Assembly (NCBI GenBank): GCA_030950585.1
Contig: JAUZRG010000018.1
Location: 1-64,000, forward strand
Source of the DNA: Mariprofundaceae bacterium
Lineage (GTDB): Bacteria > Pseudomonadota > Zetaproteobacteria > Mariprofundales > Mariprofundaceae
Length of the DNA stretch: 64,000 nucleotides
Reading direction: 5' to 3'
Shown here: in pieces, positions 44,166 to 55,502 of the stretch
How positions within the stretch are numbered: the first letter of the stretch is position 1
Layout: each line of letters begins with the position of its first letter
The notes under the pieces: generated by a model
The model's input: only the letters and a program-made list of their open reading frames with translations
Told to the model about the DNA's origin: nothing
Database searches by the model: none
Translations under genes and position numbers: made by a program

Positions 44166-46546
44166 AGTTCATCATTAAGAACGGCGTTATTACTATTACT
44201 ACTGCTATTGCTTACAGTGCTTTCTTCCATACCTTCACTCTCTAAGCTTGGTACTGGCCTTGGTTTAAATCTTGTCGGCTCTGTGCCTGAACGAAATGCC
44301 TCTAAAAAGGATCCTGCGGATGCACTTCTTGTCCGGTAGCCGCTTTTTTTATCAATAAGAACCCAAGATATGCCTTCTGGTTCTTTAAAGTCTTTAACGG
44401 GTTTGCCTTTGTGTAGAAACTGCATGGTTTCAAGCCAAATAGGTAATGCTGCTTTGCCGCCTGTTTCTCTTCGTCCTAGTGTTGAAGGTTGATCCTTTCC
44501 AACCCATACACCTGTTAAAACTTGTGGTGTAAAGCCCATGAACCATGCATCAATTTGGTCGTTGGTTGTGCCTGTTTTACCTGCGGCGGGTCGTTTCAAT
44601 GCACGAGCCCTGACACCTGTGCCATGTTGAATAACACCTTTCATCATATTCACGGTGACAAATGCAGTGGCTGCATCCACCGTTTGTTTGGCCGGCAGCA
44701 TGTGTTTGTTTAGCCCTATGACTGGATTGATGTGACAAGTTTGGCATCGGTGACCTGCAACCGCACGAATGAGGCTATGGCCTTTTCTATCTTGTACTTG
44801 TTGAACTCGGACTGGTTTCCAGTGTTGGCCTAGTGTGGCGAGTACGGTATACGATTCCGTTAGTTTTTCTAAGCTAACTTCGCTCGCACCTAGAGCGAGT
44901 GATAATTGGCGTGGAAAGCGATGCTCAAAATGAAAATTTTCAAGTGTATTTAAAAAGGTATCAATGCCGACATCTTGAAGTATCTTGATGGAAACTAAGT
45001 TACGTGAGTGTTCCAAGGCATTGCGAATAGTTACAGGACCCGCAAAATTATTTTTATAATTTTTAGGTGTCCATGTTTTGCCTTGGTTTTGCCCTGGAAA
45101 GACGAGGGGGGTGTCCATAATAATCGTTGCAGGTGTGAGGTCTTGGCTCATACCTGTAAAATATAAGAATGGTTTGAAAGATGAACCTGGTTGCCGTTTA
45201 GCTTGCTGAACGCGGTTAAATCGACCAAATTTATAATTAAAACCACCAACTTCAGCTAAAACAGTGCCTTTTTCTAAATCAATAGAAAATAAAGCTGACT
45301 CAATGGAAGGAGTTTGGCTAATTGTTGCCTTTCCCGCTTGATCGATGCGCAATAAAACTTCGTCACCGACCAACCAAGTGGAGTGTTGTTTGTTCTTTTT
45401 CCAAGACCACTTAGGTGCTTTGATTTGCCATGTTTTGATACCATCGTGAACCGTGAGTTTTTTTGCTTCGTTTCTTTGAATTAAGCCAGGGAAAATACCG
45501 TCAGAAGCAAGGCTACTTGTGCTTCGAGCCTTTTTCCATGAAGCGAATAATGCGGGCCATTTTTCTGGTTCATGGTGAGGAGGGGTGCGATAGAATTGCC
45601 GACCTTCGACATTCAAAACGCCTTTTCGTAAGGCGTGGCGCGCCACTTGCTGTGCTTCAATGGTATAAGGCGTGATGATGGTCAGGCCTTGTCGGCGTAA
45701 GTTTTCTTTACCAAATTCTTTTTCAAGTTGCTGATAAACACTGTGTCCATAAGTGTCTTCGAGCTTATTTTGTGGTAAAGGCTGAATGTTTAAAGGGGTG
45801 TTAAGTGCGTCTTCCACACTTTTTTTATCACTGAATTGAGTGATAAGCATGCGTCTTAAAACAATATCACGTCTTTCCTTGGCTAAGGAAGGATTTAAGT
45901 GAGGAGCGTATTTGCTGGGCGCTTTTGGTAAGGCAGCCAGCATCGCTGATTCGGCTAAGTTGAGCTCATCGACTGTTTTACGATAATAACGCCATGCCGC
46001 AGAACCAACACCATGAGAGCCTCGACCTAGGTAGATTTGATTGAGATATAGGTATAGGATTTCATTTTTACTAAAGGTTTGCTCGAGACGGTAGGAAAGA
46101 ATGATTTCACGGACTTTTCGTTGCCATGTTCTTTCTGGCGAGAGTAAAAAGTTTTTGACCACTTGTTGTGTGATCGTACTCGCTCCTTGAACAACCCTTC
46201 CTTGCTTGATGTTGTTGTAAAAAGCTGACAAGATACGTGCTGGATTAAATCCAGGATGTTTGTAGAATTGTTCATCCTCAGTGGTGATAAAAGCATCTTT
46301 AAGGTGTTTTGGCATGTCTTCTAGGGGAACAAGTAGCCGATGTTCGTCTGCATACTCTGCCAAAAGTTTACCATTATTATTGTAAACACGGCTTGCAAGT
46401 GGTGGGCGATAGGAAGCAATACTATCTAGTTTGGGTAGAGAGCTGGCAAAGTGTAAATAAGCTGCTGTAACGACAATCATAGCAGAAAGGGTGAGTGTGA
46501 GAGTTATTTTGAGAAAGATGATAAAAAATCGCATTGAGGCAATCAT
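44162..46546 (-). CDS. mrcA: Penicillin-binding protein 1A
   Basis: This 794-residue bifunctional enzyme has a TM anchor (about residues 9-30), a glycosyltransferase 51 domain (TTEDEQFYKHPGFNPARI with catalytic Glu, QGASTITQQVVKN), and a transpeptidase domain with SxxK in PGSSFKPFL, SRN in EHSRNLV, and KTGTTND. It ends in a Ser/Asn-rich tail. It polymerises and cross-links peptidoglycan in the periplasm. ATG at 46546 or 46534 could be the start; neither has a strong ribosome binding site. The 5' end overlaps the divergent pilin gene. Confidence 0.95.
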   Translation of the reverse strand: MIASMRFFIIFLKITLTLTLSAMIVVTAAYLHFASSLPKLDSIASYRPPLASRVYNNNGKLLAEYADEHRLLVPLEDMPKHLKDAFITTEDEQFYKHPGFNPARILSAFYNNIKQGRVVQGASTITQQVVKNFLLSPERTWQRKVREIILSYRLEQTFSKNEILYLYLNQIYLGRGSHGVGSAAWRYYRKTVDELNLAESAMLAALPKAPSKYAPHLNPSLAKERRDIVLRRMLITQFSDKKSVEDALNTPLNIQPLPQNKLEDTYGHSVYQQLEKEFGKENLRRQGLTIITPYTIEAQQVARHALRKGVLNVEGRQFYRTPPHHEPEKWPALFASWKKARSTSSLASDGIFPGLIQRNEAKKLTVHDGIKTWQIKAPKWSWKKNKQHSTWLVGDEVLLRIDQAGKATISQTPSIESALFSIDLEKGTVLAEVGGFNYKFGRFNRVQQAKRQPGSSFKPFLYFTGMSQDLTPATIIMDTPLVFPGQNQGKTWTPKNYKNNFAGPVTIRNALEHSRNLVSIKILQDVGIDTFLNTLENFHFEHRFPRQLSLALGASEVSLEKLTESYTVLATLGQHWKPVRVQQVQDRKGHSLIRAVAGHRCQTCHINPVIGLNKHMLPAKQTVDAATAFVTVNMMKGVIQHGTGVRARALKRPAAGKTGTTNDQIDAWFMGFTPQVLTGVWVGKDQPSTLGRRETGGKAALPIWLETMQFLHKGKPVKDFKEPEGISWVLIDKKSGYRTRSASAGSFLEAFRSGTEPTRFKPRPVPSLESEGMEESTVSNSSSNSNNAVLNDEL

Positions 46547-47087
46547 AAAAGCATTGCAGCCTCAGGTGCAAGTCCGAGAGTTTGGTTTTACCATGATGGA
46601 GCTAATGGCAGTGATCGCCGTTCTATCTATTTTAACCGCAATTGCTGTGCCCGCTTTTTCAAATATGAAAGACCGATCTGGGATGTCAAACTTACATAGT
46701 ACCTTGATGGCACATATGAAGCAGGGGCGTGTAAAAGGGATGGCAGAAAATAGAGATGTGGTAATTGAGTTTAAGCCAACAAAATTCAATTTAGCTGTAG
46801 CACCTGTACCATTACCTGTTGCTGGAGCGGCTTATGTATTTGATGCTCTAAAAGCGGCATCGACTCGTTCAGTTCCATCGGTAGAAGAGGAACGTTTGGT
46901 GAGCGTTCGTGATTTTTCTAATAAAATTTTAATTACTAAAAATGCACCATTAACAACAGCTGTTAAATTTTCTAGTGCTGGTGGTACAGCAAATACTACT
47001 ATTACACTGACATCTTCTAATACCAATGTGGCAGTGAAAACAATTACACTTAATATTGTAGGGCGAGCATATGCATCGACGCTTTAA
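46518..47087 (+). CDS. FimT/GspH-like minor pilin
   Basis: This minor prepilin has the motif EFGFTMMELMAVIAVLSILTAIAVPAF, with mature Glu5 intact and a body suited to the GspH/FimT group. Start choice is open: ATG 46518 gives a 23-residue leader, while GTG 46566 gives a more typical seven-residue leader (MQVREFG) and avoids overlap with mrcA. It begins a run of four minor pilin genes with overlapping ends. Confidence 0.85.
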   Translation: MIKNRIEAIIKALQPQVQVREFGFTMMELMAVIAVLSILTAIAVPAFSNMKDRSGMSNLHSTLMAHMKQGRVKGMAENRDVVIEFKPTKFNLAVAPVPLPVAGAAYVFDALKAASTRSVPSVEEERLVSVRDFSNKILITKNAPLTTAVKFSSAGGTANTTITLTSSNTNVAVKTITLNIVGRAYASTL

Positions 47088-47601
47088 TTCTTCGGAAAAA
47101 GGTTTTACATTAATTGAAGCAATCATGGCGATGGCGATCATTAGTATTGCCATGTTAGGCTTAGGGTCTTTTACCATCTCTATTATGGAAAAAGATAAGC
47201 TGGCTCATGATCGTAATCAAGCAGTGCAAATTGCTTCACAGGTCTTAGAGGAATGGAGTGGTGGAACACAGCTACCAACCTCGGTGGCTATTTTTGCGCA
47301 AGGGGTCACTCAACAGCTGAACACCTATAGTACTTTGCCAGCTCAAGGTGTGCTAATACCTAGCCCACCTCAATTCTATGTGGTTGGACAGCAGGTGGTG
47401 GCACAAGCTCTATTTGCAGGTGGCGTGGTAAAAGATCTTGGTTATGCCACTTATTTTAACAGTGCGACGGCAACTGTATCTCAAGTAGATCCTAATTTAC
47501 GTGTTGTCACCGTGCTGTGGTCTGACAAAAAACAGCGAGATATTTATTCTGCTTACCGAGTGGTGTTATCTAATATGTCTGAAGTACCTCCAGGGCTATG
47601 A
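47071..47601 (+). CDS. PilV-like minor pilin
   Basis: This 176-residue prepilin has leader MHRRFNSSEKG then FTLIEAIMAMAIISIAMLGLGSF, the Ile-Glu-Ala-rich helix typical of PilV/GspI. It overlaps the preceding pilin gene by 17 bases and the next by four. Minor pilins of this group prime pilus assembly at the inner membrane. Confidence 0.87.
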   Translation: MHRRFNSSEKGFTLIEAIMAMAIISIAMLGLGSFTISIMEKDKLAHDRNQAVQIASQVLEEWSGGTQLPTSVAIFAQGVTQQLNTYSTLPAQGVLIPSPPQFYVVGQQVVAQALFAGGVVKDLGYATYFNSATATVSQVDPNLRVVTVLWSDKKQRDIYSAYRVVLSNMSEVPPGL

Positions 47602-48206
47602 ATATGCAATCTCAAGAAGGTTTTACCTTGGTAGAAATGATCATTGCGATGGCGATTGGTCTTGTGTTGATGGGAGGGGTTTATAGCAACTTTATGTTGC
47701 AAACAAAGGTGCAAAACTTCCAGTCAAGTGTCACGGATGTGACGCAAGATTTAACGCTTGTGAGCCAAGTGATGTTTAAGGAATTGAAGTCAGCAAGAAA
47801 GGGTAGTTTGGTCTATACGCCAGGTGCTACGCCGAGTGTTCCAACAACCTTGGACTATATAAATCGAGATGGGTATACAGGTTCTTTTAAGTATCAATTT
47901 TTACCTGGTCTAAATACAAAGTATTTGGGTAAAGATAGTTTGTGTTGGGTGAAAAAAACAGGGGGGAATTGTAATGAAGTTATGCGTGGTTTAAGTATCA
48001 ATACTCTTGACCCTGATGATCTAACAGTCACCTTACCCTTGGGTTTTGATTTCTATACCTATATTTTGCCACCAGATCCTTATGGACGACCCTTACCAAG
48101 TGATGTTTATGGTATGCAGGTGATTACTTTGCGGGGTATGTATAAGACCACAGATAAAAAAACCGGTATTATTGAACATACTTTCAAGGTGTGGCAGAGG
48201 AATTAA
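47598..48206 (+). CDS. PilW-like minor pilin
   Basis: This 202-residue prepilin has the short leader MNMQSQEG then FTLVEMIIAMAIGLVLMGGVYSNF, as in PilW/GspJ; the body has MVVGL-type beta structure and no obvious Cys pair except SLCWVKKTGGNC. It overlaps pilV by four bases (ATGA). Confidence 0.87.
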   Translation: MNMQSQEGFTLVEMIIAMAIGLVLMGGVYSNFMLQTKVQNFQSSVTDVTQDLTLVSQVMFKELKSARKGSLVYTPGATPSVPTTLDYINRDGYTGSFKYQFLPGLNTKYLGKDSLCWVKKTGGNCNEVMRGLSINTLDPDDLTVTLPLGFDFYTYILPPDPYGRPLPSDVYGMQVITLRGMYKTTDKKTGIIEHTFKVWQRN

Positions 48207-48208
48207 TT

Positions 48209-48961
48209 GTGCATAAAAAAGAAGAAGGCTTTGTTCTTATTGCGTCGTTAACGATTATCGCGCTCATGACGATGGGTAATTTAGCCATGTACTATCGCAG
48301 TGTCAGTAATATTCAAACCAATGCAGCATTGGCCGACCGTGCTCAAGCCAGTTACTTTGCTGAAACAGCGGTAAACTATATGGATTGGGCCATGCTGCCT
48401 TCAAATGATGCAGACCTAGATCCTTACACTTCTGCAGGCGGAGATTTTGGTGTGCTAAACTCCACGCCTCCAGCCGCTGCCGCCCCAGGCGCTGCTGCGC
48501 CACCACCGAATACAGTGGGAAGGCCTCAGTTTAATGTTAGTTATTTTGATAATCGAGCGCTGAATCTCAGAAAGGTAAACTTTACTGGGAAAGGCAGCGC
48601 GGCGAGTAATATGAAGCTAATGTGGAATGACTTGCCAAATATGAATCCCAATGCAGCAGCCTATTGTTTTCTTAAGTTAATGATCACAACAGATACAGTG
48701 AATGGTGTACAAAAAATTGAGACAACGGTAACCAATGTGTTGCCTGCTTCTGGTGAAGATGGTGCCTTAGTGTGGTTAACCGCTTCTCCAGTTGGTTCCT
48801 CTATGGATGGTGTCGGTGCGTTAGCTGATGTAGATATGGTTGTTGATCCAGCTCTTTTGGGCGGTGTGAACGGTGGCTATGATTTAGTTGTGTATGCTTT
48901 GGGTTATATTAACGGTAAACCACGGAATTTATTGCGGAAAAAGATTCGCGTGGTGCGTTGA
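48209..48961 (+). CDS. PilX-like minor pilin
   Basis: This protein of about 250 residues has leader MHKKEEG then FVLIASLTIIALMTMGNLAMYYRS, the PilX N-terminal pattern, where the pilin Glu5 is replaced. I chose GTG at 48209, with GAGGAA six bases upstream, over a GTG six codons earlier. An Ala/Pro-rich insert (PPAAAAPGAAAPPP) lies near residue 90. Typically pilY1 follows pilX; here it does not. Confidence 0.82.
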   Translation: MHKKEEGFVLIASLTIIALMTMGNLAMYYRSVSNIQTNAALADRAQASYFAETAVNYMDWAMLPSNDADLDPYTSAGGDFGVLNSTPPAAAAPGAAAPPPNTVGRPQFNVSYFDNRALNLRKVNFTGKGSAASNMKLMWNDLPNMNPNAAAYCFLKLMITTDTVNGVQKIETTVTNVLPASGEDGALVWLTASPVGSSMDGVGALADVDMVVDPALLGGVNGGYDLVVYALGYINGKPRNLLRKKIRVVR

Positions 48962-49008: not shown

Positions 49009-49024
49009 TGTGATTTATATCACT
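49009..49024. promoter_or_regulatory. CRP/FNR-like palindrome
   Basis: TGTGA-TTTATA-TCACT closely matches the CRP consensus TGTGAN6TCACA; it also partly fits FNR. It lies about 75 bases upstream of the start of transcription expected from the TATAAT at 49081. Confidence 0.55.
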
Positions 49025-49086: not shown

Positions 49087-49144
49087 TTAGAAGCATTTTA
49101 TTGAGATAGTAAAGAGTTGATTTGTGATCAAAAAGGAGATTATG

Positions 49145-49807
49145 ATGAAAAATAGTATTTTAAGTTTGTTATTTATGGGGTTGCTACTTTTTGCAGCGCC
49201 GTTTACGGGTGTTGCTGGTAATGATAGCAACAATAGTGATAACGGTGATAGTAGTGAAAATAATAGCGGCAACAACGATGATAACAGCAACAACGATGAT
49301 AACAGCAACAATGATAATAACAACTCAGTAGTTGACCTTGTTTGTGCCTGTACTGCGGTAACAACTGCAACACGTGACGATGGTGATAACAACGACGATA
49401 ACGGCAGCAATGACAACGGCAGCAATGACAACGGCAGCAATGACAACGGCAGCAATGACAACGGCAGTAGTGATGGCAATGGTTTTGGCAATGGTGATCA
49501 AGACTCGCCTGGTGGGTCTTTAGAAAACAACAACGATAACAACAACAACGATAACAACAACAACGATAACAACAACGATAACAACAACAACAACGATAAC
49601 AACAACGATAACAACAACAACGATAACAACAACAACGATAACAACAACAACGATAACAACAACAACGATAACAACAACAACGATGATAACAATGCAAATA
49701 GTTTGCTAGGTACGCCATGTGCGTGTCCAAATGGTACCCCTCCAGGTACTTGGGTAGAAGCTACAGGTGGTGTTTCTTCTTCTTTCCGTGAAATGGATGG
49801 TCAATAA
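49145..49807 (+). CDS. Secreted Asn/Asp-rich repeat protein, unknown function
   Basis: I do not recognise this 220-residue protein. It has a signal peptide (MKNSILSLLFMGLLLFAAPFTGVAG) and then almost only Asn, Asp, Gly and Ser. Parts in order: an N/D/S region; a short core LVCACTAVTTATR near residue 63; five NDNGS units; a spacer with GNGFGNGDQDSPGGS; a tract of N and D; and a C-terminal TPCACPNGTPPGTWVEATGG segment. The paired CAC motifs suggest disulfides or metal binding. ATG 49145 is favoured over 49142 by AAGGAG spacing. It follows the minor pilins, where PilY1 would be expected, and may be a pilus-linked or surface protein; that is inference. Confidence 0.75.
   Translation: MKNSILSLLFMGLLLFAAPFTGVAGNDSNNSDNGDSSENNSGNNDDNSNNDDNSNNDNNNSVVDLVCACTAVTTATRDDGDNNDDNGSNDNGSNDNGSNDNGSNDNGSSDGNGFGNGDQDSPGGSLENNNDNNNNDNNNNDNNNDNNNNNDNNNDNNNNDNNNNDNNNNDNNNNDNNNNDDNNANSLLGTPCACPNGTPPGTWVEATGGVSSSFREMDGQ
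49397..49471 (+). repeat. 15-base tandem repeat encoding NDNGS units
   Basis: Five nearly identical 15-base units (GACAACGGCAGCAAT) lie head to tail within the repeat protein gene. The unit length keeps the reading frame, so copy-number change alters protein length only. Confidence 0.9.
49523..49694 (+). repeat. 15-base (AACAACGATAACAAC) tandem repeat
   Basis: About eleven near copies, two of them shortened to 12 bases, encode an Asn tract broken by single Asp. Codon choice is almost purely AAC and GAT, which points to recent expansion by slippage. Confidence 0.88.
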
Positions 49808-49841: not shown

Positions 49842-49875
49842 GAAGCCTCTCTGATTTTTCAGGGAGGCTTTTTAT
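49842..49875 (+). terminator. Rho-independent terminator of the repeat protein gene
   Basis: AAGCCTCTCTG and CAGGGAGGCTT form an 11-base stem (one T-G wobble) around a T-rich loop and are followed by a T run. It starts about 35 bases after the stop codon. Confidence 0.88.
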
Positions 49876-49883
49876 TTAAATAA

Positions 49884-50684
49884 ATGAGGTATATTTTGTC
49901 TGCTAAAGTTCATTTAACTATTCAATCACATGCTCTAGTGTGGCGGGTCGCCCTTATTTGTGTGGCGATAGAATTATCTTTTGTGTTTCTGGATTGGCTT
50001 ATTAATTACCAAAGAGGAATTGATATATCTCAAATCAGACGTTTATTTAATATTGCAAGAGAAGATGGCTTAGCTGGTTGGTTTGCTGTTTTTCAAACGA
50101 TGTTTGTAGCCATGGTACTTTGGTTTATTACTTATATCCTGCATGTGCAAGGCATGCATAGGTGGAAAGTTTTTGGTTGGGGTTTTCTAGCTTTATTCTT
50201 TAGTATGATGGCGATTGATGATGGTGCTGTTGTGCATGAACGTTTGGGTAGCGCTTTTAAAGCTGTGATGGCTAATGGTCAAAGTGATTCTTTTGGTGCA
50301 TCATTATTGTCGTTTTTTCCAAGTTACTCATGGCAACTTATTCTTTTGCCTTTCTTTTCTTTAGTTGGTTTGTTTATGTTGATTTTTGTGTGGCTAGAAG
50401 TTGGGGATAAAGCTAAGAGAAAACTATTGGTTCTATCTTTTGTTCCCCTGGTGATGGCAGTGGGTCTTGATTTTATTGAAGGTCTAGATGTTGATCATGC
50501 TTGGAATATTCAAACGTTTTTGGTTCATGATTATGATACAACGACTTATACTATTTCTCATTTTTCTAAGTCTTGTGAAGAGTTTCTTGAAATGCTGGGA
50601 AATACAATGTTTTTATATTTGTTTATGACACATGCTTTTTTTGTGATTCGAGAAGGTCTATCTATTTCTGTTCAAGAAAAATAA
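49884..50684 (+). CDS. Polytopic membrane protein of unknown function
   Basis: I do not recognise this 266-residue protein. It has about six hydrophobic segments (about 20-40, 68-90, 95-118, 150-172, 183-203, 235-255). Polar residues within or near them (MAIDDGAVVHERLG near residue 112, FIEGLDVDHAWNIQ near 205) could form a metal or substrate site. ATG at 49884 has no clear ribosome binding site; TTG at 49896 follows GAGGT and is a possible alternative. It lies between two pilus gene sets. Confidence 0.7.
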   Translation: MRYILSAKVHLTIQSHALVWRVALICVAIELSFVFLDWLINYQRGIDISQIRRLFNIAREDGLAGWFAVFQTMFVAMVLWFITYILHVQGMHRWKVFGWGFLALFFSMMAIDDGAVVHERLGSAFKAVMANGQSDSFGASLLSFFPSYSWQLILLPFFSLVGLFMLIFVWLEVGDKAKRKLLVLSFVPLVMAVGLDFIEGLDVDHAWNIQTFLVHDYDTTTYTISHFSKSCEEFLEMLGNTMFLYLFMTHAFFVIREGLSISVQEK

Positions 50685-50756: not shown

Positions 50757-51839
50757 GTGTTGGGTCTCTTCTCAGGGAAAAAAGATGCGTTAATTGGTAT
50801 CGATATTAGCTCTGTAGGGGTTAAGTTGATTGAGCTAGCTCATACTCGCTCAGGCTATGAACTTAAAAGTATTGCAATTGTACCATTGCCACGCGATGCG
50901 ATTGTGGAAAATACAATTATTGATTCAATGGCTGTATCTCAAGCTTTATTAGACGTATTAGAAGTTGCTTCACCAGCTTCTCGAAATGTTGCTTTTGCTG
51001 TTTCAGGTAATGCTGTGATTATTAAAACAGTTCAGTTGCCAATGATGAGTGAATTTGAGCTTGAAATGTCTATTGAATTTGAAGCAGAACCGCATATACC
51101 TTATGATATAGAAGATGTGTTTTTAGATTTTCAAATTCTTGGTGGTGTGGAAGATGAGCCTGAAATGATGGATGTTGTTTTGGCGGCATGTAAACGAGAG
51201 GTGATTGAAGACTATCAACTTGTTTTGAATGAAGCTGCTTTACAAGTGAAGTGTGTTGATTGTGCCGTGTATTGTTTAGAGAATGCAGCGGAAATTGCCT
51301 TAGGTGATCAGCAGGAAGAAGAAAGTTTGATGTTAACGGATGAAGATAGTCAGGTGTATGCATTGGTAAATATTGGTGCCAATATGATTAACATTAATAT
51401 TCAGCAAAATGGACAAACAGCTTTTGTTCGAGATCAATTTTTTGGTGGTGAAAATTTAACCGAAGAAATTCAAAAAGAGCATGGTGTTAGCTATCAAGCT
51501 GCAGAAAAGTTAAAAAAAGAACGTTTTTCTGAAGTGAGTCCCGAAGCACTAGATACATTCTATATTGGCTTAACATCTGAATTAGTACGCTCCTTGGATT
51601 ATTATTCAGCTAAGTATTCAGAGTATCCCGTGCAAAAGTTATATATTAGTGGTGGAACAGCATTAATTCCAGATATCACGAATGAATTAGAGCAGCGCCT
51701 GGGTATTGAAACAGAGATTGTTGATCCTCTGCAAGCATTAAAAATACCAAAAAAGAAGTTTAAAAATGTTGACCTGAGTAGTATTGGTCCCATGATGATG
51801 GTTCCCATTGGTTTGGCCTTACGGTCTTTTGATAAATAA
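50757..51839 (+). CDS. pilM: Type IV pilus assembly protein PilM
   Basis: This 360-residue actin-like cytoplasmic ATP-binding protein links pilus assembly proteins to the inner membrane. It has DALIGIDISSVGVKLIEL (phosphate-1), ALVNIGANMININI and the adenosine motif LYISGGTALIPDI. It starts at GTG 50757, with AAGGAG four bases upstream. It opens the pilM-N-O-Q operon. Confidence 0.96.
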   Translation: MLGLFSGKKDALIGIDISSVGVKLIELAHTRSGYELKSIAIVPLPRDAIVENTIIDSMAVSQALLDVLEVASPASRNVAFAVSGNAVIIKTVQLPMMSEFELEMSIEFEAEPHIPYDIEDVFLDFQILGGVEDEPEMMDVVLAACKREVIEDYQLVLNEAALQVKCVDCAVYCLENAAEIALGDQQEEESLMLTDEDSQVYALVNIGANMININIQQNGQTAFVRDQFFGGENLTEEIQKEHGVSYQAAEKLKKERFSEVSPEALDTFYIGLTSELVRSLDYYSAKYSEYPVQKLYISGGTALIPDITNELEQRLGIETEIVDPLQALKIPKKKFKNVDLSSIGPMMMVPIGLALRSFDK

Positions 51840-51866: not shown

Positions 51867-52421
51867 ATGATTCGAATTAATCTTTTACCTTATAGAGAGG
51901 ATCGTAGGAAGCAGCAAGTACTGGAGCATGTCATTGTTCTTGCTGTTGCTATTGTGATTGCTATTACGGTGTGTGTTGGCATGCAGCTTATGGCAAGTTC
52001 AGAGTTAGATTCTATTCAAGCTGAACAGGCTATTTTGACGAAGAAAAATGCTGAGTTAGTGCAGCTTCTTGGTAAAACTAGTGGTTTAGAAACATTGCGA
52101 GAAGAGGTGCAGCGTAAACTAGACTTGGTAGATACTCTGCAAAAAGGTCGTTTTCGTTCGCTCGAACTATTACTAACGATTTCAAGGCTTACTCCAAATA
52201 ATCTATGGCTAGACTCAATCTCAGATAAAAAAGGTAAAATTTCGTTAACAGGTTATGCAGAAACCAGTGTGAGTATTTCCGAGTTCATGAGTGACCTTGA
52301 AAACTCAGAAGCTATTTCGAGTGTTAATCTTGGCAGTGTTGAAACTGATGAGTCAGCAGAAGAATTACCCGTAAAGTCATTTGATTTAACAGTTATGTAT
52401 GATTTGACTGGCACAAAGTAG
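51867..52421 (+). CDS. pilN: Type IV pilus assembly protein PilN
   Basis: This 184-residue inner-membrane protein starts with MIRINLLPYREDRRKQQ, the conserved cytoplasmic motif that docks into PilM, followed by one TM (about residues 23-43), a coiled coil and a periplasmic ferredoxin-like domain. It works as a dimer with PilO. Confidence 0.95.
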   Translation: MIRINLLPYREDRRKQQVLEHVIVLAVAIVIAITVCVGMQLMASSELDSIQAEQAILTKKNAELVQLLGKTSGLETLREEVQRKLDLVDTLQKGRFRSLELLLTISRLTPNNLWLDSISDKKGKISLTGYAETSVSISEFMSDLENSEAISSVNLGSVETDESAEELPVKSFDLTVMYDLTGTK

Positions 52422-52434
52422 GTAGAGGTTTTAT

Positions 52435-53028
52435 ATGAATAACTTTATTACGTCTTTTTCTGCTCTTCTACCATATCCTATGTGGCAGAAATTTATGATG
52501 TTGGCAGTGATCGTGGTTGCTATTTTAGGACTATATATCTTTTTATCTTGGGTTCCTTTGAATGAAGATATTGTAAGGGCTGAGAGTGACTTAGAGCGGA
52601 TTACAAAACAGGTTAGTGAAAATCAACTAAAAGCACAGGATTTAGATAGGAAAAAGAAAGAGTTTGAAGGCTTGGAGCGATCACTAAAGGTTGCCTTAAG
52701 TATGTTACCTACAAAATCTGAGATTCCAAAATTATTAAAAAATATTACATGGGCTGGTAAGCAATCTGGTTTGGTTTTTAAAAAATTTAAACCAGGTCGT
52801 GAAAAAAACAAAAAGCAAAACTTTTATGCTGATATGCCCATAGATATTGAAGTTTATGGCTCGTTTAAAGATTCGATAGCTTTTCTTTCTAAAATAGGCG
52901 AGTTACCACGGATTGTCGATATGCAACGCTTGAGCCTGAAGCGTGCCAGTAAAGAGGATAAAAACATGGAAATGACAGGGCGTGCTATGACGTATCGTTT
53001 TATTGAATCAGGGGATGCAAATAAATGA
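52435..53028 (+). CDS. pilO: Type IV pilus assembly protein PilO
   Basis: This 197-residue protein has one TM (about residues 22-43), a long coiled coil (about 48-88) and a periplasmic domain (SEIPKLLKNITWAGKQSGL, VYGSFKDSIAFLSKIGELPRIVDMQRLSL). It overlaps pilQ by four bases. No pilP lies between it and pilQ. Confidence 0.95.
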   Translation: MNNFITSFSALLPYPMWQKFMMLAVIVVAILGLYIFLSWVPLNEDIVRAESDLERITKQVSENQLKAQDLDRKKKEFEGLERSLKVALSMLPTKSEIPKLLKNITWAGKQSGLVFKKFKPGREKNKKQNFYADMPIDIEVYGSFKDSIAFLSKIGELPRIVDMQRLSLKRASKEDKNMEMTGRAMTYRFIESGDANK

Positions 53029-55502
53029 TTTCTTTATATCAATTTACTTCTAAGGTAAAAGAAATGATGCCCTTACTTCATAGAATGTTCTTTTTGTGTG
53101 CATTATCTGTGCTATGTTTATATTCGACGACAGCGTTTTCAGCTCAACTTGAAAAGGTGCGCCTGATGCAAGCGGTTGACGGTGAAAAAGTATATGTCTA
53201 CTTTGATGAGTCAGTTCCTTATCAGGTATTTGATTTATCAGCACCTAGGCGTGTTGTGTTTAACTTTCCTGAAATTGGCATGAACTCTTCGATAAAGCCG
53301 ATACAAAGTTCCAGCTCTAGTTTGCGCGTCTCTCCTGTGCTTTCGAGTCAGGGTGTTCGTATGGAGTTAGAGTTGCTTAAGGGTGTTGAATATAAGGTAG
53401 AAGAACAAAAGAATTTAATTATCATTCATTTAAATAAGACGATTCGTGATGTTAAGTTAGAAGGGCGTCAAACCATTTTACAGTCCTTAGAGGTGATCGA
53501 AAGAGGTGATGTCTCAGAACTACATTTACGTGGCTTTAATTTGGACATTAATCATAATGCATATATTTCAAATAAAGGTCAGCGTATGGTTCTTGATTTG
53601 TGGGGAGCTAAATCTCGTCTAGTAAAACATAACTATCAATATTCCTTTGAACATATTCGTGATATTTCTGTCGGTAAAGAAGAAAGTCGTGTGCGTATCG
53701 TTGTTGGCTTAAAGGGTGGTGAATCCCTAAAATATCAGGTTGATGCTCAGAAAAATGAGCTAATTGTTCGTTTTGGTCAAGTTCATACTTCAGTAAGAGA
53801 AGGTATGATTCAAGTCGAAGGTGTTGATTTCAAAGCAGATGATCGTATTGCTCGTCTTTTCATTCGCACGAATTCGGATCACCCTGTTGTTAACCTTGAA
53901 AAGAAAGATGATATGGTGTTGATTGATATTCAAAATGCTCAACCAAAACAAGGGCAAGAACGTTCAATGGATGTGCGTTCTTTTTCTGGCCCAGTGTCTC
54001 AAGTCGATGTGTATCAAAAAGAGCAAGATGTGCGTATTATTGCTCGTTTACGAGGAAAAGTGACAAGCTCTTCTTTTCAGCAAGGAAACTTATTAACCAT
54101 TACGTTGGAGCCTGAAGATTTAACCTCATCTCGTGGCGGTGGCAGCGGTAATGACACACTTGCCTATGTGGGGCAAAAAGTCACCTTTGATTTTAAAGAC
54201 ATTGAAATTGCCAATGCTTTATTATTTATCTCTGAAATGGCAAACATGAATATTATTATGTCGGATGATGTTAAGGGAACCTTGACGATGCATTTGGTTG
54301 ATGTGCCTTGGGATCAAGCGCTTAGCCTTATGTTGAATGCGCATGGTTTAGCAAAGATTCAAGAAGGTAATGTGATTCGGATTGTGTCGGTCGATGTGTT
54401 GCAAAAGGAAAATGAATCTAGGTTAAAGGCGCAACAAGGGTCAGCACAACTTGCCCCTCTCGTGACAGAGTTTGTGCCATTGAGTTATGCCAAGGCTAAT
54501 GATGTCAAAACCATGCTTGAAGATGCCACCAAGCAAGTGCAAAAAAAAGCAGGCGGTGAAAGTGGCAATGCAAACAGTGGCGTGAAATTGCTTTCTGCTA
54601 GGGGCAGTTTACTCGCAGATCCACGTACGAATACATTGATTATTCAAGATACCCAAGCTTCAATTCTTAATATTAAACGTATGATTGCATCCATTGATAC
54701 ACCTGTTGAGCAAGTCTTGATTGAAGCTCGTATTGTGGATGCTTCAGACCAATTCCAAGATAGTGTAGGTATCCGTTGGGGTGGTTCTTTAAACCGCAAA
54801 ACGAACTATGATTTCCCTGGGGCTATTTCACTTGGCCCAGTGGCCACAACAGCGGCTAATAATGCTGCTATTATAGGTGGCGGTGTTGCCACCGCGACAG
54901 GTCGTGGTTTTATGGTTGATTTACCTGCCGCTGCGGGTGCTGGTACAGGTGGTGCGATAGGTCTTAGCTTAGGATCTTTTAGTAATATCTTTAATTTAGA
55001 CCTTGAAATTTCTGCTGCTGAAACCGATGGACTGGCCAAGCGTATTTCAAACCCAAGAATAGTCACTGCCAATGGTGTTTCGGCCACCATATCTCAGGGT
55101 GTCGATGTTCCTTTTATCACGCCAGGGAGTGCTAATGGCCCACCCACAGTTAGTTTTAAATCTGCGAGTCTTGGTTTGACTGTGACACCAATGATTACTG
55201 CTGAAGATAGTATTGTGATGGATGTTAGTTTAAGTAATAATGCACCAACAGGTGATGTCGTTTTAGGAAATCCTGTGATTGGTACCAAGAACATACAAAC
55301 AAAAATTAAAGTTAATAATGGTGAAACTGTTGTTATTGGTGGTATCTTTACGCAAATTAAATCAAATAGTGGTGGTGGTGTACCTGGTTTATCTCGTATT
55401 CCTATCTTAGGCTGGTTATTTAAGAATAAAACCAGCGTTGATAGTAAAACGGAACTTTTAATCTTTTTGACACCCCGAATTGTTGACTCTAGTCTTCAGT
55501 GA
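53025..55502 (+). CDS. pilQ: Type IV pilus secretin PilQ
   Basis: This 825-residue outer-membrane channel for the pilus has a signal peptide (cleavage near AFSA at residue 38-39; an internal ATG at 53064 may be the true start). AMIN domains span about residues 45-360, with a Gly-rich linker, then a secretin N0/STN domain (VTFDFKDIEIANALLFISEM), an N1 domain (FVPLSYAKANDVKTML, LLADPRTNTLIIQDT), and the secretin barrel (VLIEARIVDASDQFQDSVGI to VPGLSRIPILGWLFKN). An Ala/Gly-rich insert lies near residues 600-645. It is intact. Confidence 0.97.
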   Translation: MISLYQFTSKVKEMMPLLHRMFFLCALSVLCLYSTTAFSAQLEKVRLMQAVDGEKVYVYFDESVPYQVFDLSAPRRVVFNFPEIGMNSSIKPIQSSSSSLRVSPVLSSQGVRMELELLKGVEYKVEEQKNLIIIHLNKTIRDVKLEGRQTILQSLEVIERGDVSELHLRGFNLDINHNAYISNKGQRMVLDLWGAKSRLVKHNYQYSFEHIRDISVGKEESRVRIVVGLKGGESLKYQVDAQKNELIVRFGQVHTSVREGMIQVEGVDFKADDRIARLFIRTNSDHPVVNLEKKDDMVLIDIQNAQPKQGQERSMDVRSFSGPVSQVDVYQKEQDVRIIARLRGKVTSSSFQQGNLLTITLEPEDLTSSRGGGSGNDTLAYVGQKVTFDFKDIEIANALLFISEMANMNIIMSDDVKGTLTMHLVDVPWDQALSLMLNAHGLAKIQEGNVIRIVSVDVLQKENESRLKAQQGSAQLAPLVTEFVPLSYAKANDVKTMLEDATKQVQKKAGGESGNANSGVKLLSARGSLLADPRTNTLIIQDTQASILNIKRMIASIDTPVEQVLIEARIVDASDQFQDSVGIRWGGSLNRKTNYDFPGAISLGPVATTAANNAAIIGGGVATATGRGFMVDLPAAAGAGTGGAIGLSLGSFSNIFNLDLEISAAETDGLAKRISNPRIVTANGVSATISQGVDVPFITPGSANGPPTVSFKSASLGLTVTPMITAEDSIVMDVSLSNNAPTGDVVLGNPVIGTKNIQTKIKVNNGETVVIGGIFTQIKSNSGGGVPGLSRIPILGWLFKNKTSVDSKTELLIFLTPRIVDSSLQ

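Follow-up and report, generated by a model that had tools for sequence, protein, structure and literature searches.

An Exported, Cysteine-Paired Low-Complexity Protein Family at the PilY1 Position of Minor Pilin Loci in Zetaproteobacteria

Gene organization around the minor pilin locus

The window, a stretch of 64,000 nucleotides, comes from a draft genome (99% complete, 2.5 Mb) of the Mariprofundaceae, marine iron oxidizers of the class Zetaproteobacteria. The relatives with names that were recovered via PilM (L057–L061) belong to this group. It carries four minor pilin genes, a small gene encoding an Asn/Asp-rich protein, a membrane protein gene, and pilM, pilN, pilO, and pilQ (Table 1). 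We designated the site between pilX and pilM as the slot. The block of ponA (reverse strand), fimT-pilV-pilW-pilX, slot, and pilM-N-O-Q is kept in most relatives. The gene order agrees with the initial annotation, which had placed the small gene after fimT-pilV-pilW-pilX at the position of PilY1.

Table 1. Positions of the features at the locus in the window.
Feature	Position	Strand	Basis or remark
fimT/fimU-like minor pilin	46491–47087	+	N_methyl PF07963; synteny
pilV-like minor pilin	47071–47601	+	N-methyl prepilin motif; synteny
pilW-like minor pilin	47598–48206	+	N-methyl prepilin motif; synteny
Short pilX-like minor pilin (type A)	48191–48961	+	Alignment; class-wide search
CRP-type operator, TGTGATTTATATCACT	49009–49024	+	9/10 positions, 1 mismatch; about 120–135 nt upstream of start
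Shine-Dalgarno, AAGGAG	49133–49138	+	6 nt before second ATG (49145)
Exported Asn/Asp low-complexity protein, two CAC motifs, C-terminal SFREMDGQ, slot-family member	49145–49807	+	Sequence and relatives
Variable N/D tract (15-nt tandem array)	49526–49692	+	Tract composition differs among relatives
Conserved C-terminal block, GTPCACPNG..GTW....SSSFREMDGQ (family profile)	49703–49804	+	Profile match, E 7e-11 to 8e-15 in own genome
Intrinsic terminator	49842–49871	+	Folds at −28.1 kcal/mol, z = −7.2
TM266, conserved polytopic membrane protein	49884–50684	+	Adjoins slot family in many relatives
pilM	50757–51839	+	Synteny
pilN	51867–52421	+	Synteny
pilO	52435–53028	+	Synteny
pilQ	53025–55502	+	Synteny
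Giant ORF, >2801 aa	55598–64000		Directly after pilQ; runs past the window end

TM266 has the invariant motifs AREDG, DD..HER, PSYxWQ, DFxEG, and HF..EE.LEM and no invariant Cys, and it gave no match in Pfam, in the PDB, or by fold (AlphaFold model, pLDDT 76). It also occurs away from pilX in one genome (G076:C33, L128). A sortase- or protease-like partnership of TM266 with the C-terminal motif of the slot protein was considered and is unsupported, as the AlphaFold model has no fold match. At its start the giant ORF has a lipobox-like sequence, and it also contains a VTPVTPVTP array and 10 or more Big_1/invasin-like Ig repeats. Elsewhere in the class, a membrane protein of 935–956 aa that combines spermidine-synthase and TPR domains recurs in the slot beside the family (L045:6131–8938, L044, L046, and L107), and the pilV-like ORF of G007 (L047) contains a TTGTTP repeat array (PTTGTTPTTG) in the middle of the protein, with masked residues there.

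The product of the slot gene

The ORF of the slot gene (49142–49807, forward strand) opens with two adjacent ATG codons and encodes 221 or 220 residues. The second ATG, which the initial annotation had used, is the better start because its spacing from the AAGGAG sequence is suitable. The 220-residue protein contains 77 Asn, 34 Asp, 23 Gly, and 22 Ser residues, with Asn and Asp together accounting for 50%, and beyond residue 25 it has 38 acidic and 2 basic residues. The CAC motifs are at residues 67–69 and 192–194 (numbering from 49145), and the chain ends with ...GTPCACPNGTPPGTWVEATGGVSSSFREMDGQ. The N/D part is formed by in-frame tandem arrays at 49269–49322, 49400–49467 (100% matches), and 49526–49692, whose main repeat units are 15, 18, and 42 nt.

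The hydrophobic N-terminal segment looks like a signal peptide of type I, which predicts export. The N-methyl motif of minor pilins (PF07963, class III signal peptide) was matched in fimT, pilV, and pilW; the slot protein gave no match. No LPXTG, PEP-CTERM, or GlyGly-CTERM sorting signal was found at the C-terminus, which has neither a membrane span nor a basic tail. The description of the product as a small secreted protein dominated by Asn and Asp with paired CAC motifs thus stands, secretion being read from the sequence, and the proposed terminator folds strongly (Table 1).

A family restricted to Zetaproteobacteria

When the whole protein was compared with 41 genomes, all matches were marginal (E 0.014 or worse), of which at least two (L005 and L007) proved to be true relatives once their C-termini were read. 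A profile of the C-terminal part (GxPCTCxDGxxGxW...SxREIxGQ-stop) matched the protein of the window with an E value of 7e-11. It was found in 43 of 399 genomes of the phylum, all 43 within the class Zetaproteobacteria, and in 44 of 78 genomes when the search was restricted to the class. The earlier statement that no family is recognizable must therefore be revised. The C-terminal pattern occurs in 55 of the 3508 ORFs of the fetched loci, a count that is not independent because many loci were fetched through the profile; all 55 have at least two Cys residues, and 49 have a hydrophobic N-terminus.

The members are 110–340 aa long. They keep a CxC pair, often as GTPC[TA]C[AP][DN]GxxGxW, and the C-terminus S-[FYLMH]-R-[ES]-[IV]-x-G-[QEKRN]-stop, as seen in G008 (...SPCTCADGSVGSWVHGEVKGPESMREVHGQ), G004 (...TGTPCTCPNGDPGTYVGTPPTVGSPDSLREVMGQ), and G018 (...SCDCPPGVAACVCADGTPGNVGG..SSSSSHREVMGQ). 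The CxC pair is kept in 37 of 56 members, its second Cys being replaced in some (e.g., CTTP), and a CHxPPG...HGDxxGxC module is present in 28 of the 56. Tandem paralogues are common (three in G067 and two each in G008, G003, G016, G027, G072, and G069). The members belong to no relevant Pfam or NCBIfam family, probably because low-complexity sequence dominates them, and a PDB profile search gave no match. The AlphaFold model of a compact 125-aa member reached a confidence above 90 only in the CHxPPG...HGD module (about residues 41–80) and gave no fold match at E <0.6.

Every stretch that carries both a short pilX and pilM (21/21) has at least one exported low-complexity Cys protein encoded in the slot. 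Thirteen of these stretches were fetched without selection for the family, via pilM or as profile-negative, and the protein is present in all 13. The C-terminal R-E/S motif occurs in 17 of the 21 slots; the remaining four, all in genus g8, contain proteins of the same build that end with FQPF or FQAF. Over 78 genomes, the profile was matched in 39 of the 52 that have a short pilX versus 5 of the 26 without it (Fisher p = 6e-6, a value that overstates independence because the genomes are related and it is uncorrected for relatedness). Other members are located away from pilus genes (G003:C26, G070:C2, G077:C59, G071:C160, G005:C75, and genus g14); at such places, gene order does not force a pilus role.

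Perfect tandem repeats and low complexity could suggest a gene in decay or translated junk generated by repeats. However, close member pairs have dN/dS values of 0.06–0.34, with changes mainly at third positions and with differing tract lengths; these values come from pairs of relatives, the gene of the window having no close relative for such a test. The ends, Cys motifs, and slot are conserved, and the gene has an operator and a terminator. Since relatives retain the gene together with its Cys motifs and C-terminus, the low complexity is not due to chance, and we rejected the junk reading, which has practically no chance of being correct. The slot is thus occupied by an exported, Cys-paired family that is specific to Zetaproteobacteria and under selection.

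Composition of the low-complexity tract

The tract is the least conserved part of the protein. Its 40-aa core is rich in Ser, Lys, Asn, Asp, Glu, or Ala, and the tracts of individual members are of N/D, KSDSKS, DSK, KDE, or SN type. Where the protein of the window has N/D sequence, relatives have repeats of Ser/Lys/Asp, Lys/Asp/Gly, Ala/Gly, or Glu/Lys, and the net charge of the core ranges from −12 to +9, being zero or positive in several members. The protein of the window is the most extreme member, and comparable N/D richness was found in only one other.

It had been proposed that dense Asp with flexible Asn binds cations or minerals. The excess of acidic residues in the protein of the window and its origin from marine iron oxidizers are consistent with a tract that has affinity for mineral surfaces or for Fe or Ca ions, but neither the charge nor the residues are conserved. 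As the N/D composition varies in this way, cation binding by Asp is highly improbable as the role of the family; it could be a property of the window's member alone.

The KSDS stretch of some relatives resembles the serine-aspartate stalks of the MSCRAMM proteins SdrC and ClfB. Its NCBIfam match to Sdr-type repeats (E 1.6e-16, 59 bits versus a cut-off of 999) is driven by composition. Unlike SdrC and ClfB, the slot family has no match beyond the repeat and no LPXTG or sortase signal.

A CRP-type operator upstream of the family

The initial annotation gave the gene its own promoter and a CRP-like site. Within the window, neither element exceeds chance: three CRP-like sites were found versus 3.2 expected, and three sigma-70-like promoter matches versus 3.3 expected. 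The site at 49009–49024 becomes credible only by comparison, because TGTGAN6TCACA with at most one mismatch is present upstream of 33 of the 50 members that have enough upstream sequence. Ten of these sites are perfect, and most lie 55–170 nt before the start. The corresponding frequency is 20 in 608 for other ORFs (p = 2e-29), and three control patterns gave 0 in 50. The CRP-like site is thus borne out by the relatives and not by itself, and the claim of an own promoter is left with its operator part, since sigma-70-like matches occur about as often as expected at random.

The operator occurs in 11 genera besides that of the window, at members outside the pil locus (L122, L130, and L102), and in 5 of 12 upstream regions of fimT. 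Perfect CRP-type sites number 2–8 per genome, mostly above a backward-pattern control. In the genome of the window the two counts are equal (3 versus 3), so that single sites are weak evidence. In G002, G003, and G016, two or three of the perfect sites stand at family genes.

Two perfect sites in the genome of the window adjoin other genes. One precedes a Cyc2-like gene at a contig end by about 80 nt (L187, G000:C179:22500–24548; N-terminus ...FARQTGAACLNCH...), a single case in which the identity with Cyc2 was judged by eye without a family match. The other adjoins a gene for a cyclic-nucleotide-binding protein (L188:1030–1917, G000:C3).

Absence of detectable PilY1

Type IVa pili are considered to require PilY1 and four minor pilins for their initiation, and these proteins are viewed as broadly conserved (PMC7541494). 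In Myxococcus, PilY1 forms a tip or priming complex with FimU, PilV, PilW, and PilX (PMC7541494). The initial annotation had called for locating pilY1 in the genome; PilY1 (PF05567) was found neither in the source genome nor in 77 other genomes of the class (0/78) by a search that a very divergent PilY1 could escape. Named controls were not matched, yet the search works, because it recovered PilY1 in three genomes outside the class. Accordingly, a pilY1 elsewhere in the relatives together with a lack of conservation near pilins, which would have spoken against the initial annotation, was looked for, and neither was observed. A full-text search of the open-license literature returned no paper on PilY1 in Zetaproteobacteria, and an earlier description may exist elsewhere; the genome papers covered by the analysis mention Flp pili, or the assembly of pili, only briefly.

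In loci with a long pilX (PilX_N, 860–1040 aa), the slot mostly contains a DUF4124/cytochrome c gene instead (L038:7792–11189, L041, L043, L049, and L061). These loci may be compared with the minor-pilin cluster of Myxococcus that contains TfcP, a noncanonical cytochrome c that stabilizes PilY1.1 in the periplasm (PMC8833165).

Discussion

The slot family resembles PilY1/PilC (PF05567) in several respects. It is encoded after fimT/U-pilV-pilW-pilX, it is soluble with a type I signal peptide as judged from sequence, and it combines a variable N-terminal part with a conserved C-terminal part. PilY1 has the same layout of a type I signal peptide, a poorly conserved N-terminus, and a conserved C-terminus (PMC7541494), although the conserved part of the slot family spans only about 35 aa. 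In clear contrast to PilY1, which has about 1000 residues or more, its members have 110–340, lack a beta-propeller domain, contain Cys pairs and hypervariable low-complexity tracts, and are restricted to one class. The shared layout is a likeness, not homology.

We infer, as the best explanation of these features, that the slot family cooperates with the minor pilins at the tip of the type IVa pilus as a soluble, PilY1-like component that is not itself a pilin, an assignment that is plausible while falling somewhat short of probable. Counted in its favor are the strictness of the slot, the co-occurrence with short pilX, the failure to find PilY1 in the class, the class-only C-terminal profile, the low dN/dS values, the operator shared with fimT, and the PilY1-like layout. 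Counted against it are the members encoded away from pilus genes, the different C-terminus in the slots of four genus g8 genomes, and the finding that neither domains nor folds nor sequence connect the family with PilY1 or with another pilus protein. Zetaproteobacterial pili may also work without a PilY1-type protein.

In such a tip role, a CRP-family regulator would act at the operator at 49009, which is identified by comparison; the regulator and the sign of its effect are presumed. The protein would be exported via its putative signal peptide. The two Cys pairs, together with the CHxPPG...HGDxxGxC module in about half of the relatives, may form a small core held by disulfides or metal. The conserved C-terminus S-x-R-E-[IV]-x-G-[QE] would dock on a partner that stays the same; the short PilX-type minor pilin, whose gene directly precedes the slot, is the most likely candidate, as suggested by the fixed protein end and the gene order. 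The freely changing hydrophilic tract would serve as a flexible exposed spacer or brush in which the exact residues have little weight, which would agree with PilY1 being variable at its N-terminus and conserved at its C-terminus.

The main rival reading is that of a secreted surface or extracellular-matrix protein of iron oxidizers (a coat, an anti-encrustation brush, or a biofilm component) that is only co-located and co-regulated with the minor pilins and is not part of the pilus. In its favor, the operator is retained at members located outside the pil locus, and strongly hydrophilic tracts with an unconstrained composition would be suited to hydration or spacing. In addition, pilQ is followed in the window by a giant surface protein with Ig-like repeats, and elsewhere in the genome a perfect CRP-type site precedes the Cyc2-like gene, the last being one case in a genome whose site count equals the control. 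However, this reading explains neither why the slot is so strictly occupied where pilX is short nor the alternation with the long-pilX locus type. We regard it as somewhat unlikely, and it keeps this weight because members also occur away from pili.

Another possibility, a quite unlikely one, is a periplasmic assembly factor that stays in the periplasm as a chaperone-like stabilizer of the minor pilins, as TfcP does for PilY1.1 in Myxococcus. Like TfcP (PMC8833165), the slot protein is small, exported, Cys-containing, and encoded with minor pilins; the cytochrome c gene in the slot of long-pilX relatives points in the same direction, and Cys pairs would suit a protein with a redox or scaffold function. 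Unlike TfcP, which has CxxCH and a cytochrome fold, the family lacks a heme motif, its Cys pairs being of the CxC type. Long hypervariable hydrophilic tracts would also be unusual in chaperones, and several paralogues per locus are common.

Returning to the pilus tip, an extended version of this role is that the class replaced the PilY1 tip adhesin by fast-changing, disulfide-held low-complexity brushes, docked to a co-evolved PilX via the fixed C-terminal peptide and placed under CRP-type control shared with iron-oxidation functions. This scenario is speculative and on the whole unlikely. If it is true, the composition of the exposed part of a pilus tip is free to change. With PilY1 undetected in all 78 genomes of the class and an unrelated, class-specific family in the slot, it becomes possible to test whether a tip cap requires a defined fold or only a docking tail with a hydrophilic head. 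For iron oxidizers, whose contact with minerals is poorly understood, the locus provides a concrete gene set and a probable regulon, defined by the operator TGTGAN6TCACA, for study.
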